Positions 1-63,017 of a stretch of 64,000 bases of DNA are shown piece after piece. Position 1 is the first letter of the stretch. Every line of letters begins with the position of its first letter. Origin of the DNA: Granulicella sp. dw_53 (GTDB lineage Bacteria; Acidobacteriota; Terriglobia; Terriglobales; Acidobacteriaceae); contig NZ_JAAVUR010000002.1 of assembly GCF_018449545.1 (NCBI RefSeq), positions 310,001 to 374,000 on the forward strand, in the 5' to 3' direction. Position numbers and translations under genes: made by a program. The notes below the pieces were generated by a model that made no database searches, was not told the DNA's origin, and saw only the letters and a program-made list of their open reading frames with translations.

Positions 1-310
1 ATGTCCCCCATGCGGATAGGCCGCGCTGCCGGAGTTTGCTTGCAGCACAATGCGCCGTCCGATGTCGGAAGCACAGTCAAAATGCAGGAAGCTTGGGGAC
101 TGATCCTCCCTCTATGCTACATGGACCAGAGCCACGAGAGAAGATTCGCCCCCGAAATGGATGTTTATGTGAGTCCGCTGTATGTTTATGCGGCAAGACA
201 GGCGCTCGAAAACCCTCATCGTCAATGACTTGCAGATTTAATCCGCATTTTGCCGGGAAAACCATTGTCAAGTCCCAAAGTTACCTAACTCCATGTCAAC
301 CAACGACTTC
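1..310. other. No recognisable gene at the left edge
   Basis: Short open frames exist on both strands (for example 1-228 and 36-434 forward) but none has a recognisable domain, a good ribosome binding site or a credible composition. They are most likely chance frames. From position 311 onward the DNA belongs to a dispersed repeat described separately. Confidence 0.4.
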
Positions 311-551
311 AAAGTGGCACTTTAGTTTCGGTCCATCTCGTAAAATAGAAACAGAGTCGAAACCAAAACAACGAGCTCCAGCCAATTGGCAGGAGCTCGT
401 TGAAGTTAACCGGGAGAGGGATTGCTGTAAGTGACGCTGGCAGACGGTTTTGGCCGTAAGCCTTTTGTTTAGAATATTTTGGCAAAGGGAGACGCCGTCA
501 TCTCGCTCAATCGAAACAGCTTACGCCCCGGCAAGGGGGGAGGGGTGGTGC
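311..551 (-). repeat. Dispersed intergenic element, copy A
   Basis: Read on the minus strand this segment starts with a C-rich run ending in TTGCC, continues through an AAAATATTCTAAACAAAAGG block (about 453-482) and a strong hairpin (stem 369-379 with 392-402, enclosing a second palindrome GCCAATTGGC at 381-390), then TTCTATTTTA (341-350), and ends in GTGCCACTTT (311-320). The same order of blocks recurs at 15245-15462 and 53963-54213. The copies share the end blocks, while the hairpin sequence differs in each. It lies just downstream of the O-antigen ligase gene. Confidence 0.7.
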
Positions 552-14061: not shown

Positions 14062-15243
14062 ATGAGCGCCGTTGTCCTCCTGCGTTCGGGGCCGAGCGAT
14101 CTCACCGTGGATCTCTCGATCCCTCATGTTCTGCTCGTTGTCGACCAGTTTCCCAAGGCTCTTGGGGGTGGGGAGCGCATTGTGCTCAAGCTTGCGGCGC
14201 TTCTGCCTCGGTATGGGTTTCGGGTCTCGATCCTTACCTTTGCGGCGCATCCGGAGAGCTCGGCGCTGGTTGCGCCTCCTTGTCCTATCTATGTGCTGCC
14301 GCTTACGCGGACCTATGACCTTACTGCCTTCAAGGCTGCTTTTGCGTTGCGACGGTTTATCCGGGAGCAGAGGATTGTCATTGTTCAGACCTTCTTTGAG
14401 AGCTCCGATATCTGGGCGGGATTCGTCACACGCAGCCTTACCAGCGCTAAGCTCATCTGGAGCCGCAGGGATATGGGCATCCTGAGGACCGGAAAGCACC
14501 ACCGGGCTTACAGGCTCATGGCAGGGTTGCCTCATGCGGTCTTCGCTGTCTCCAATTTGGTGCGGCAGCATGGCATCGAGGTGGATGGCATCGAGGCCAG
14601 CCGGGTCCAGACCATCTACAACGGACTCGACCTGGCCGACTGGATGGCTGGCAGCGGGACGCGTCTCCCGGGTGAGTGCCTCATCACGACTGCCGGTAAT
14701 ATTCGTCATGTCAAAGGGCATGACGTCTTCGTTCGGGCCGCGGCGCTGGTGGTGCAGCAGTTTCCTGACGCTACCTTCAGCATCGCTGGAGAGGTGCTGG
14801 AGCCTGCCTACTACGAGGAGCTGCAGGCGCTGGTCCAGAAGCTTGGGCTTTCTGGGCGCTTTCGCTTTGCCGGCGGAGTCTCCGATCTTCGCGGGCATCT
14901 TTCGCGTGCCGATGTGTTCGTGCTCCCGTCGAGGAGCGAAGGGTTCTCCAACGCCATCGTCGAGGCTATGGCCGCCGGGCTTCCCGTCGTCGCCACCGAT
15001 GTGGGTGGAAACGCGGAGGCGGTGTCGGATGGGGTGACGGGGTTCATCGTCCCATCCGAGGATCCGGCGGCGCTGGCGGCGGCGATCCTCTCGTTGACGG
15101 TCGATCCGGAGCGGGCCAAGGCCATGGGGGCGGCGGGGCGGGAGCTGGCTGCTCTGCAGTTCACCACGGAGGCGATGATGTCCCGGACTACCCAGGCTTA
15201 CCGGAATCTCCTGGAGGGGCGGCCCCCTTTCCCTGCCGGGTGA
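14062..15243 (+). CDS. Family 4 glycosyltransferase
   Basis: This is a 393-residue GT-B transferase with an N-terminal glycosyltransferase-4-like domain, LLVVDQFPKALGGGERIVLKLA (about 24-45). The C-terminal GT4 domain shows TTAGNIRHVKGHDVFVRAA (about 209-227) and the E-x7-E motif in SRSEGFSNAIVEAMAAGLP, followed by VVATDVGGNAE. It is the only plus-strand gene in this stretch, divergent from the deacetylase. Its stop codon directly abuts the C-rich start of dispersed element B. A long antisense frame (13960-14898) over it has no domain and is a shadow. Sugar specificity cannot be predicted. Confidence 0.88.
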   Translation: MSAVVLLRSGPSDLTVDLSIPHVLLVVDQFPKALGGGERIVLKLAALLPRYGFRVSILTFAAHPESSALVAPPCPIYVLPLTRTYDLTAFKAAFALRRFIREQRIVIVQTFFESSDIWAGFVTRSLTSAKLIWSRRDMGILRTGKHHRAYRLMAGLPHAVFAVSNLVRQHGIEVDGIEASRVQTIYNGLDLADWMAGSGTRLPGECLITTAGNIRHVKGHDVFVRAAALVVQQFPDATFSIAGEVLEPAYYEELQALVQKLGLSGRFRFAGGVSDLRGHLSRADVFVLPSRSEGFSNAIVEAMAAGLPVVATDVGGNAEAVSDGVTGFIVPSEDPAALAAAILSLTVDPERAKAMGAAGRELAALQFTTEAMMSRTTQAYRNLLEGRPPFPAG

Positions 15244-15244
15244 C

Positions 15245-15462
15245 CCCCACCCCCCTTGCCCGGGTGTAACCTGATTTATTGCAACGAGATACGGGCTAGT
15301 GCCTGTTGCAAATTATTCTAAATACAAGGCTTATGGCCAAATAGGTGCAGTGGCTTGGGTTACGGCTTCTTCTGCTACAAGCGAAACCCTCGCGTGGGCG
15401 AGGGTTTTGCTTTTTTTCTCTATTTCTATTTTATCAAGTGGTCATAACTAACGTGCCACTTT
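15245..15462 (+). repeat. Dispersed intergenic element, copy B
   Basis: The blocks run on the plus strand: C-rich run and TTGCC (15245-15260), TTGCAAATTATTCTAAATAC with CAAGGCTTATGGCC (15307-15340), a 13-bp hairpin (15381-15410), TTCTATTTTA (15424-15433) and GTGCCACTTT (15453-15462). It aligns to copy A over almost its whole length, and the hairpin sequence is unrelated between the two. It fills the gap after the glycosyltransferase gene, and its hairpin may serve as that gene's terminator. Confidence 0.75.
15381..15418 (+). terminator. Rho-independent terminator-like hairpin within element B
   Basis: Thirteen bases (15381-15393, containing AAACCCTCGC) pair with 15398-15410 around a GTGG loop, with one G-T pair, and a run of seven T follows directly. 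This is a strong intrinsic terminator on the plus strand, about 140 bases after the glycosyltransferase stop at 15243. Confidence 0.75.
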
Positions 15463-15609
15463 GCTTTATTTATTATCTATTTTAGTTTGTGTGGGTTAGC
15501 GATTTTTTTGGGTTTGGTGAGGGTTGACAGATTTGGCGAAGAAAAGCAAAAGTGAGGGCGATCGATCTGTCATTTCGGCTTCGTCTGTACTCCGGCGTTA
15601 CACCCTAGG

Positions 15610-53962: not shown

Positions 53963-54213
53963 GACCCCTCCCCCGCCTTTTTGCGCAAAATCTTCATTTC
54001 GCTAGGCTTCGTCCCGGACTTCGCTGGGCTCTTTTGCAGGCCATTTTGACTAAAAGCAACTCGACCTATCGTCGGTCTGGCTGCCTTCGGTCTGCGGAGG
54101 GCAAAGTTGTAAAGAGCTTCTGACTCTCCGCGCTGAGCGGTCAGAATGACACCTTCTGTTTCTTTATTCTCTACTTCTATTTTAGCGAGGGGAGCATAAC
54201 TAAAGTGCCACTT
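53963..54213 (+). repeat. Dispersed intergenic element, copy C
   Basis: Order of blocks as in copies A and B: C-rich run then CCTTTTTGC (53963-53983), a TTTTGCAGGCCATTTTGAC block in the middle, a hairpin (TTCTGAC 54118-54124 with GTCAGAA 54140-54146), TTCTATTTTA (54175-54184), and GTGCCACTT (54205-54213). The ends match A and B well; the centre is diverged. It fills the gap between osmC and the cation-efflux gene, where no other gene is seen. Confidence 0.65.
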
Positions 54214-54316
54214 GGATCTCGCTGATGGGAAGCGAGTTACGTGGATTTGGGGCTTGACATGGCTTTTGCTGGGGTATTGCTGAGGAGGTGGGTGTAAAGC
54301 TCTGTTTCTACTGTTG

Positions 54317-61939: not shown

Positions 61940-62761
61940 TTATAGTGCGGCTGGGTTTTCCTCGGCTGCTGCGGTGTTTTCGAGGATGCTGAGGCCAGCG
62001 ATCTCTACTTGGATGCGGTCTCCGGGGCTGAGGGAGCCTACGCCGGCGGGAGTTCCGGTGGGAATGAGGTCGCCGGGTTCGAGGGTGATGGCGGCAGTGA
62101 TGTAGCGGAGGAGATGGGGGATAGAGAAGATGAGGTCGGCGGTGGAAGCTTGCTGGACGATCTTTCCGTTGAGGCGGGTGGTGAGGGTGACGGGAGCTTC
62201 GATGGGGTCGATCTCGTTGGATACAAGGGGGCCGGTGGGGCAGAAGGTGTCGAAGCCTTTGCCGCGGGTCCACTGGCCGTCGGACTTCTGGAGGTCGCGG
62301 GCGGTGACGTCGTTGACCAGGGTGTAGCCGCGGATGTAGGGGCGGACGTCCTCGTTGGGGCCGAGATGGCGGCAGCGGCGGCCGATGACGATGGCGAGCT
62401 CGCCCTCGTAGTCGACGCGGCTGGAGAGGCTGGGGAGGAGGATGGTTCCGCCGGGGGCGAGGAGGGAAGAGGGTGGCTTTAGGAAGAGGAGCGGCTCTTT
62501 GGGGAGCTCGTTGCCTAGTTCGGCGGCGTGATCTTTATAGTTGCGGCCGATGCAGAGGATTTTGGAGGGAGTGACCGGGGGTAGGAGGGGAAGAGCCGAC
62601 AAAGGCTGGGGCTGGAAGGGGCCGGGGAGGCGGGTGGCGGCGAGGTCTTCGGCGGGGACCTCGTTGGGAGTGAGGAGGCGGGTCGCCCAGAGGGTGCCTG
62701 CGCGGTCTTCGATGGCGGCGTAGGCGGTGGTGGAGTCGGATTGGAATCGGCAGTAGCGCAT
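61940..62761 (-). CDS. Fumarylacetoacetate hydrolase family protein
   Basis: This 273-residue metal-dependent hydrolase or decarboxylase has the core KILCIGRNYKDHAAELG (67-83). Metal ligands are in VDYEGELAIVIGR (two Glu around 118-120) and NDVTARDLQ (Asp). The nearby KGFDTFCPTGP segment is also characteristic. Family members cleave acylpyruvates or hydrate 2-oxo acids, for instance acylpyruvase FAHD1-type or 2-hydroxyhepta-2,4-diene-1,7-dioate isomerase. The exact substrate cannot be predicted. Confidence 0.88.
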   Translation of the reverse strand: MRYCRFQSDSTTAYAAIEDRAGTLWATRLLTPNEVPAEDLAATRLPGPFQPQPLSALPLLPPVTPSKILCIGRNYKDHAAELGNELPKEPLLFLKPPSSLLAPGGTILLPSLSSRVDYEGELAIVIGRRCRHLGPNEDVRPYIRGYTLVNDVTARDLQKSDGQWTRGKGFDTFCPTGPLVSNEIDPIEAPVTLTTRLNGKIVQQASTADLIFSIPHLLRYITAAITLEPGDLIPTGTPAGVGSLSPGDRIQVEIAGLSILENTAAAEENPAAL

Positions 62762-63017
62762 GGTCTTCTTTGTCTTGGCCTCCTGTTTTTAGGGGGTTAG
62801 GTGGTTTTGGGGATTGACATGTGATTTTGGTGGGAAGATGTCGCAATGAAGTTGACGGTGATTATGGCCAAGAATACACTTGCCGTCCGGAAACGCCTTG
62901 AAAAGGGGAATGGGCGTAAAAATCGGTGTGACGAATGTATCAAACTTGGCTGACTGAAGAGGGCTCTTGGTAAGAGGGCCCCTTCGCTCGGGCACTTTGG
63001 CGGGTTGGGGAGAGCCC

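Follow-up and report, generated by a model that had tools for sequence, protein, structure and literature searches.

What are the three similar sequences that lie in intergenic gaps of a 64,000-nucleotide stretch of the Granulicella sp. dw_53 genome (hereafter, the window)? The first-pass annotation had described them as copies of one element at 311–551, 15245–15462 and 53963–54213 (copies 1, 2 and 3), with conserved ends around a hairpin of changing sequence, and had proposed a mobile element, a structured RNA, a terminator or insulator or, read in reverse, a promoter. All three copies are present in the window with their parts in the claimed order (C-run, A/T-rich block, hairpin, TTCTATTTTA, GTGCCACTT), and the promoter-like appearance in reverse is the best-supported part of the earlier interpretation. 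The repeats are a high-copy intergenic module of soil bacteria related to Edaphobacter. We judge it probable that every copy forms a complete unit for starting transcription, on the opposite strand from that first read, with an activator, a leader RNA and copies that have spread.

Copy number and setting of the element

A degenerate core pattern, CTATTTTA-N13-ANCTAANGTGCCACTT with up to three mismatches, occurs in at least 127 places of the 6.15-Mb genome (76 forward and 51 reverse), against none for a reversed control pattern; the element thus has further copies, and its shared blocks exceed chance. The spacing had been called nearly constant; from CTATTTTA to AACTAA it is 13 bases in copies 1 and 3 and 12 in copy 2, which is why copy 2 is absent from the 127 places. 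The extent needed correction as well: GTGCCACTT is present but is not the end of the element, since a TTGACA box lies beyond it.

We sampled 92 copies of this genome, taken from 100 of the 127 places with the last eight of these left out. CTATTTTA, AACTAA and GTGCCACTT are near-invariant in them, partly because the copies were picked by the core, and the 13 bases between vary. To the left of the core the sequence is first T-rich, then forms a hairpin and passes into a left part, which opens with a C-run and belongs to at least two classes; by the rule used, 17 of the 92 copies have no C-run, and among the other 75 it is misplaced in at least L002, L011 and L016. The second class of left part (CAAAATCTTCATTTGATTTGGCTTGGG..TTGGACTTTT, with inverted AAAGTC/GACTTT) is joined to the same core. 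It occurs in copy 3, where it begins with the G/C run at 53964–53975 (minus strand) and continues at 53980–54030 (minus; CAAAATCTTC ... GGACTT), and in some of the 32 sampled copies without a match to the leader model R2 described below, such as L009 and L032.

According to calls by a gene finder trained on the window, 36 sampled copies lie between convergent genes, 25 between two reverse genes, 11 between divergent genes and 10 between two forward genes; of the remainder, seven have no right gene and three overlap a predicted frame. Across 336 kb of sampled loci of this genome, every match to the module patterns tried lay within 400 bp of a core. In the window, a solitary right module (GGTTAGGTGGTTTTGGGGATTGACATGTGATTTTG, match at 62806) was observed without a core at 62786–62835, about 50 bp upstream of the start of a fumarylacetoacetate-hydrolase-like gene (61940–62761).

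A promoter-like core and a helically phased upstream box

Read on the opposite strand, each copy presents a -10-like box (TANNNT), two conserved blocks (TAGTT and TGGC) and a TGTCAAGCCCC box. Other species have CTATTATA, CTATTGTA or CCATTATA in place of CTATTTTA; on the other strand this is TATAAT or TACAAT, and it thereby suggested a promoter reading leftwards. The -10-like hexamer TAAAAT lies at 341–346 (plus strand) in copy 1, where it is assigned from hexamer variation as well as sequence, and at 15428–15433 and 54179–54184 (both minus) in copies 2 and 3; transcription of copy 1 would run towards higher coordinates. Upstream of it stands the AAGTGGCACTTTAGTT block in copies 1 (312–327, plus) and 3 (54198–54213, minus), and in copy 2 the AAGTGGCACGTTAGTT block (15446–15461, minus), 12 instead of 13 bases from the -10-like region. 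The TGTCAA of the upstream box, which in copy 1 reads TTGACA on the minus strand, was located by sequence, and in copy 1 also by phasing, at 266–271 (plus), 15524–15529 (minus) and 54254–54259 (minus), at 40, 62 and 40 bp from the respective cores.

Fixed T1, A2 and T6 with the other positions variable is the usual pattern of a sigma70 -10 hexamer. This pattern was found in gene-linked leaders with a core score above 12, where T1, A2 and T6 are kept in 22 of 22 and position 3 is A in 8, T in 7, C in 6 and G in 1; the 22 comprise 18 of the 30 loci found through the protein described below and four of six paralogues chosen for having the layout, and the score matrix used to find them favours T-A-n-n-n-T hexamers. 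The -35 position holds genome-specific bases and not the consensus TTGACA. A sigma54 promoter was considered and rejected: although TGGCAC agrees with that consensus, the core lacks the GC of its -12 part.

The positions of neighbouring genes are consistent with this direction. Left genes on the strand of the RNA start at a median of 76 bp from the G/C run (24 genes) and right genes of the opposite direction at a median of 419 bp from the box (22 genes; p 6e-7), both medians being based on crude predictions of gene starts; such a difference would be expected if the module drives leftwards. The left side lies near genes of either strand; in 45 forward genes, the stop codon precedes the C-run by a median of 26 bp.

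The distance between TTGACA and the core changes in steps of about 11 bp in this and in other genomes. Among the 92 sampled copies it is 40 bp in 49, 62 bp in 12, 84 bp in 7, 50 bp in 3 and other values in a few. When the box is placed at its best match to GGGGCTTGACA, its spacing from the core has a period of 11.0 bp, with R 0.944 in 91 of the 92 copies and R 0.936 in other genomes (61 of 64 copies); one copy of dw_53 and three foreign copies were left out for a weak box, and the copies of each set are related by descent and hence not independent. Two distances in other genomes, 58 and 59, are off the period. Two protein sites facing the same side of the double helix would produce such 11-bp phasing, and an upstream site at helically phased distances, found here in both sets, is a trait of class I activator-dependent promoters. 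Together with the hexamer pattern and the gene linkage described below, it supports, at the level of sequence, a promoter with an upstream activator. The promoter would be of the sigma70 type, with a -10-like box (TANNNT) and no consensus -35, and a regulator bound at TGTCAAGCCCC, on the same helix face as the core, would aid RNA polymerase.

Four bases between AACTA and GCCA vary by genome. They are AAGT or ACGT in dw_53 and CTAT, CTCT, AACC, AAAT, ATGC or ATAC in other genomes. The four bases of dw_53 were part of the core search pattern; among 29 cores of this genome that were reached through the leader model instead, 22 have AAGT or ACGT. In the groups compared beside one and the same left gene, each species has its own four bases (e.g. 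L031, L120, L123 and L165; L008 and L055).

A Cys/His-rich gene family linked to the module

Several left genes on the leader strand belong to a single Cys/His-rich family. A ribosome-binding site and a start codon come immediately after the C-run in L120 and L123, and copies in the genomes G017 and G409 have the core and its hairpin immediately upstream of the Cys/His gene. The product is 146–197 amino acids long in the intact cases seen. Its matches are found in 52 of the 60 genomes of the genus; the two in dw_53 each lie next to a sampled copy. Searches of curated families, nuclease families included, gave nothing at cut-off, the weak matches being DUF5763 and a primase zinc finger; the predicted structure has a mean pLDDT of 55.9, too low for a fold search. 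The family motif was noted as CRHIKTNGxRCQ...CYFH followed by LEDxESVQ...LLYxLQ, and the family is multi-copy, with 11 matches each in G009 and G011; members were seen at L031:863-1300 (minus strand), L242, L247, L248, L250, L127, L139, L218 and L044.

The linkage was examined at 30 orthologue loci, from 30 of the 52 genomes with a protein match, and is independent of the core pattern because these loci were found by protein search. Within 700 bp upstream, the best core score is higher than in any of 120 control flanks (maximum -12.0) at 26 of the 30 loci and exceeds 12 at 18 of them, with the elements of three loci (L120, L123 and L165) having been in the score matrix. Among the 26 cores above background, 21 lie 177–214 bp from the gene start. 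TTGACA occurs at 39–62 bp in 28 of the 30 loci, in four of these beside a core that is not above background. At 19 further paralogue loci (a twentieth repeats L278 and was not counted) the core score is above the background maximum in seven and above 12 in five, L283–L285 have the layout with a poor core, and nine others have no core. As a separate observation, five similar upstream regions of the Cys/His gene family in G011 (L286–L290) have no core and share a AGCCCGGCTGGGTAGCCGAGCT hairpin. The protein match is absent from 5 of the 14 genomes without a match to R1, a sequence profile of the core, and from 3 of the 46 with one (Fisher p 0.013); with one query, this association of the Cys/His protein with the presence of the element is suggestive only.

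We take the best-kept form of the module to be the 5' region of the Cys/His genes.

The proposed leader RNA

From the putative promoter onwards, the gene-linked leaders run through a hairpin, the series GTAAC...GGTTGCA...TTAGCG...CGCTAA...TGCAACC...TTAC, a G/C palindrome and the ribosome-binding site. RNAalifold predicted no pairs on a first leader alignment of 23 sequences. The stems that we tested were named by reading the leader sequences; 76.7% of their cells are paired, and 42 cells show changes on both sides, compared with 18.2 ± 3.6 after shuffling. With the outer GTAA/TTAC pairs included, 21 gene-linked leaders have 76.2% of cells paired (shuffled, 69.2 ± 1.1), 47 double-change cells (shuffled, 21.1 ± 3.8; slid versions reach 24) and a covariation score of 0.238 (shuffled, 0.131 ± 0.015; slid, at most 0.110), where shuffling ignores relatedness and sliding does not, yet favours a structure read from the sequences. 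Covarying stems, the mark of a structured RNA family, were thus found in the gene-linked leaders and are weaker in gene-less copies. The outer helix 3–9/92–98, with 58.5% of its cells paired, is less well supported than 31–37/93–99.

The model R2 was built from 21 leaders, one of them from dw_53, with the promoter excluded, and carries helix 3–9/92–98. On the leader strand of the 92 sampled elements it gave 52 matches at E ≤ 0.01 and 60 at E ≤ 1, which leaves 32 copies unmatched. Wrong-strand matches numbered 8 of 70, and for L015 the wrong-strand match scores higher. In the whole genome R2 has at least 71 matches at E ≤ 0.01, two places being counted on both strands, and across the order it matches in at least 54 of 150 genomes and at least 13 of 42 genera; these are lower bounds, with at most 150 candidates scored in dw_53 and at most 27 per genome in the order. 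R2 itself contains neither the promoter core nor the TTGACA box, and among its best 30 matches in the genome 29 have the core and 29 the box; eight of the 30 lie outside the 92 sampled copies, and seven of these eight have the core.

In the window, R2 matches copy 1 at 426–526 (plus strand; E 1.6e-4 in the window) and copy 2 at 15264–15364 (minus; E 9.8e-8 in the window), and both matches barely out-fold shuffled sequences (z -0.04 and -1.4). At the far end of the leader, the G/C run of copy 1 (535–550, plus) lies about 30 bp from the 3' end of an O-antigen-ligase-like gene (579–1913), and that of copy 2 (15244–15255, minus) directly past the stop codon of a glycosyltransferase gene (14062–15243). 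The structured RNA considered by the first-pass annotation is supported, although it lies on the other strand and chiefly in a part for which no structure had been noted. Its AAAATATTCTAAA-like block lies inside the opposite-strand match in copies 1 and 2, but copy 3 has the other left part and no such match. No Rfam family matched the window at gathering thresholds, and none matched the gene-linked leader L120 up to E 1; window positions 15230–15560 gave eight matches below gathering thresholds, the best being rnk_pseudo with 33.2 of 55 bits.

Gene-less copies of dw_53 retain the stem in part: 64.7% of cells are paired compared with 59.6 ± 1.0 after shuffling (41 rows, two of them antisense), while in the same rows pair changes on both sides number 17 against 16.8 and the pair types are not above the shuffles. 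R2 was present in 34 of 53 copies whose left gene points away and in 18 of 39 whose left gene could be driven. Being as common beside genes that point away, it suggests that most copies are not leaders of a neighbour; gene-less copies may be sources of a short RNA of their own, decoys or parasites.

In attenuator-type 5' leaders, a promoter is followed by an early terminator-like hairpin, a structured leader, a ribosome-binding site and the gene. The module has the same layout and differs in that its structured stem follows the terminator-like hairpin and that most copies do not have that gene family behind them. Its transcript would begin with the terminator-like hairpin, continue in most copies with a long imperfect stem-loop and then a G/C palindrome, and form, before Cys/His genes, a 5' leader ending at the ribosome-binding site. 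We infer that the copies are transcribed and that transcription is attenuated at the first hairpin.

Distribution, probable gain and persistence

A pattern search across the family with the four bases left open matched 20 of 398 genomes, 19 of them in the genus of dw_53. An exact-match scan of named genomes gave 21 stretches, 14 from Acidobacteriaceae-type records (Edaphobacter lichenicola, Acidobacteriaceae KBS 89, and MAGs called Edaphobacter or Acidobacteriaceae); the other seven, from five Bacillaceae records, a Methylobacter MAG and a Bacteroidetes MAG, are taken for chance matches. R1 matched at least 46 of the 60 genus genomes, and at least 40 of 150 genomes and 6 of 42 genera in the order, the counts being lower bounds with at most 83 (genus) and 33 (order) candidates scored per genome. 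Copy numbers differ widely between species.

Copy 3 occupies a gap between an OsmC gene and a cation-efflux gene, the latter being found in all 60 genus genomes. Among 30 efflux loci fetched, only that of dw_53 has core and box; in the other 29, neither lies within 620 bp of the end of the efflux gene. OsmC was matched in 25 of these 29 loci, in 21 cases at 57–265 bp from the efflux gene. This comparison of filled and empty sites among relatives, which had been proposed as a check, is most simply read as a gain of copy 3 in this lineage. Some places are shared: by matching core sequence, G014 and G308 have 12 core places in common and G188 and G255 have eight, and ten groups of loci have a common left gene across genomes, with conserved cores over-represented in these groups because the loci were found by the core pattern. 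Gene-less copies would have dispersed among the gaps between genes on Acidobacteriaceae chromosomes, and some copies appear to persist beside the same gene across species.

These observations also bear on a non-autonomous transposon family of the MITE type, in which core and box would be transposase-binding sites in helical register and the resemblance to a promoter incidental or a relic of a transposase promoter. Dispersed non-coding repeats with promoter signals are known from the neisserial Correia elements and other MITEs, and the module shares these features. Presence in dw_53 against 29 empty loci at the OsmC/cation-efflux gap, the uneven copy numbers and an exchange of left and right halves among copies of G017 (L036, L042, L047 and L050) all speak for mobility. 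Among the MITE traits, this presence/absence at one site is the one that was found, whereas terminal inverted repeats and target-site duplication were not detected. In the 73 copies of dw_53 that entered each test, cognate flanks showed no excess of matches of six or more bases, a test weak for duplications of up to five bases or for misplaced ends, and cognate ends were no more alike than non-cognate ones, where misplaced ends could hide inverted repeats because the ends were set by the C-run and TTGACA. When frames lying up to about 2 kb from copies were compared at 166 loci, duplicates among them, no transposase was found among the 14 largest recurrent clusters listed, the largest being frames over repeats. 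Moreover, in two pairs of close species every place that one search found in either member has its counterpart by core sequence in the other (12 and 12; 8 and 8), and transposition leaves unexplained both the position upstream of one gene family, with its leader RNA, and the -10-type variation of the hexamer. We consider a MITE family unlikely, and the mobile element of the first-pass annotation thus stands as regards presence/absence at one site and uneven copy number, but not as regards target duplication and inverted ends.

The hairpin and termination

The hairpin had been described as strong in all three copies with unrelated sequences. When folded alone, the terminator-like hairpins of copy 1 (369–402, plus strand) and copy 2 (15380–15411, minus) have z values of -7.4 and -6.0. 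In a uniform folding test on the 92 sampled copies, a set that does not include copy 2, copy 1 reached z -4.1, but copy 3 (L002), with its weaker hairpin at 54118–54146 (minus), only z -1.7 (-1.66). Values below -2 were obtained for 44 of the 92 copies and for 11 of as many control stretches. No two of the 92 copies have the same longest stem, as the description implied, but the hairpins of L005 and L006, and of L009 and L032, are visibly related. The T-richness of the hairpin hardly differs between the strands (3.5 vs 3.3 T in 12 bases), which counts against the transcription-start module.

A conserved bidirectional terminator or insulator, whose blocks would bind a termination or roadblock protein, accords with several of these data. 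In the plus direction, 52 of the 92 copies but only 5 of 92 controls have a terminator-like hairpin with a score of at least 15; in the minus direction 33 of 92 copies have one, and convergent pairs are the commonest setting (36 of 92). Against this, plus-direction hairpins are independent of the strand of the left gene (30 of 53 vs 22 of 39, p 0.71), OsmC has another G/C-rich hairpin before the element, and the gene linkage is left unexplained. The plus-strand terminator or insulator proposed earlier was therefore set aside, in spite of the excess of hairpins over controls, and we regard the bidirectional form as quite improbable.

Least probable of all is an architectural DNA element, in which nucleoid-protein sites bend or wrap DNA that has no transcript of its own: it would account for the 11-bp phasing and for the density of IHF-consensus matches (1.61 per kb in the left parts of dw_53 vs 0.10 per kb in left flanks; one mismatch allowed, one strand), but there are only six exact IHF matches in 21 kb of left parts, A/T periodicity within elements is weak, and the covariation of paired arms is unexplained. 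Two specific candidates were rejected on the same data, IHF sites with enrichment that is partial and not general and A-tract curvature with weak autocorrelation; integron attC and Xer sites were set aside by eye.

Relation to known systems and possible regulation

HEARO RNAs, later recognized as the omega RNAs of IscB, lie beside an ORF in some copies and are orphan in many. The module likewise has a gene beside some copies and many orphans; unlike HEARO, its linked gene encodes a Cys/His protein without a nuclease family match, and its gene-less copies stop before the ribosome-binding site. REPs are described as palindromes of 20–40 bp with GTAG or CGTC tags (PMC3733652). Like REP/BIME and REPINs as characterized there, the module is high-copy and intergenic and often lies between convergent and unidirectional genes, whereas it is about 250–350 bp long, has a non-palindromic core and contains promoter-like and leader-RNA parts. 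The short palindromic repeat of a REP was not found: the core has one block of 8 and one of 16 bases, separated by 13 variable ones, and by eye is non-palindromic, least of all palindromic in other species. Acido-1 and Acido-Lenti-1 (RF01686 and RF01687) are also structured RNA candidates of Acidobacteria (PMC2864571); unlike them, the module gives no Rfam match at gathering threshold in the window and none up to E 1 in the gene-linked leader. Our literature searches found no paper on this element. With no Rfam match at threshold, no paper in our searches, and none of the REP and MITE traits looked for being found, save for presence/absence at one site, we therefore call the element a dispersed intergenic repeat that is probably at once a promoter with a structured leader.

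If the copies of this transcription-start module are transcribed, dozens to more than 100 similar start sites and structured RNAs per genome would lie in gaps annotated as empty in a major soil phylum, and an uncharacterised zinc-finger-like gene family would gain its first regulatory context. The module would also provide a concrete promoter logic, a -10 box with a phased upstream box, for the phylum. That four bases are common to most copies of one genome and differ between genomes raises a question of co-evolution between a regulator and its sites. One can go further and suppose that the more than 100 mostly gene-less promoter-plus-RNA units of a genome constitute one regulatory system, in which the module-derived Cys/His protein binds the DNA or RNA of the module and the four bases at the -35 position change with the protein. 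We find this doubtful; gene-less copies would then be dispersed small-RNA genes or decoys, and literature searches turned up no such network.

A second repeat of about 90 bp (CCCACCCTTCGC ... GCGAAGGATGGGGCACCC) was often observed downstream of the element, at L036, L042, L047 and L050 and at many loci of dw_53.
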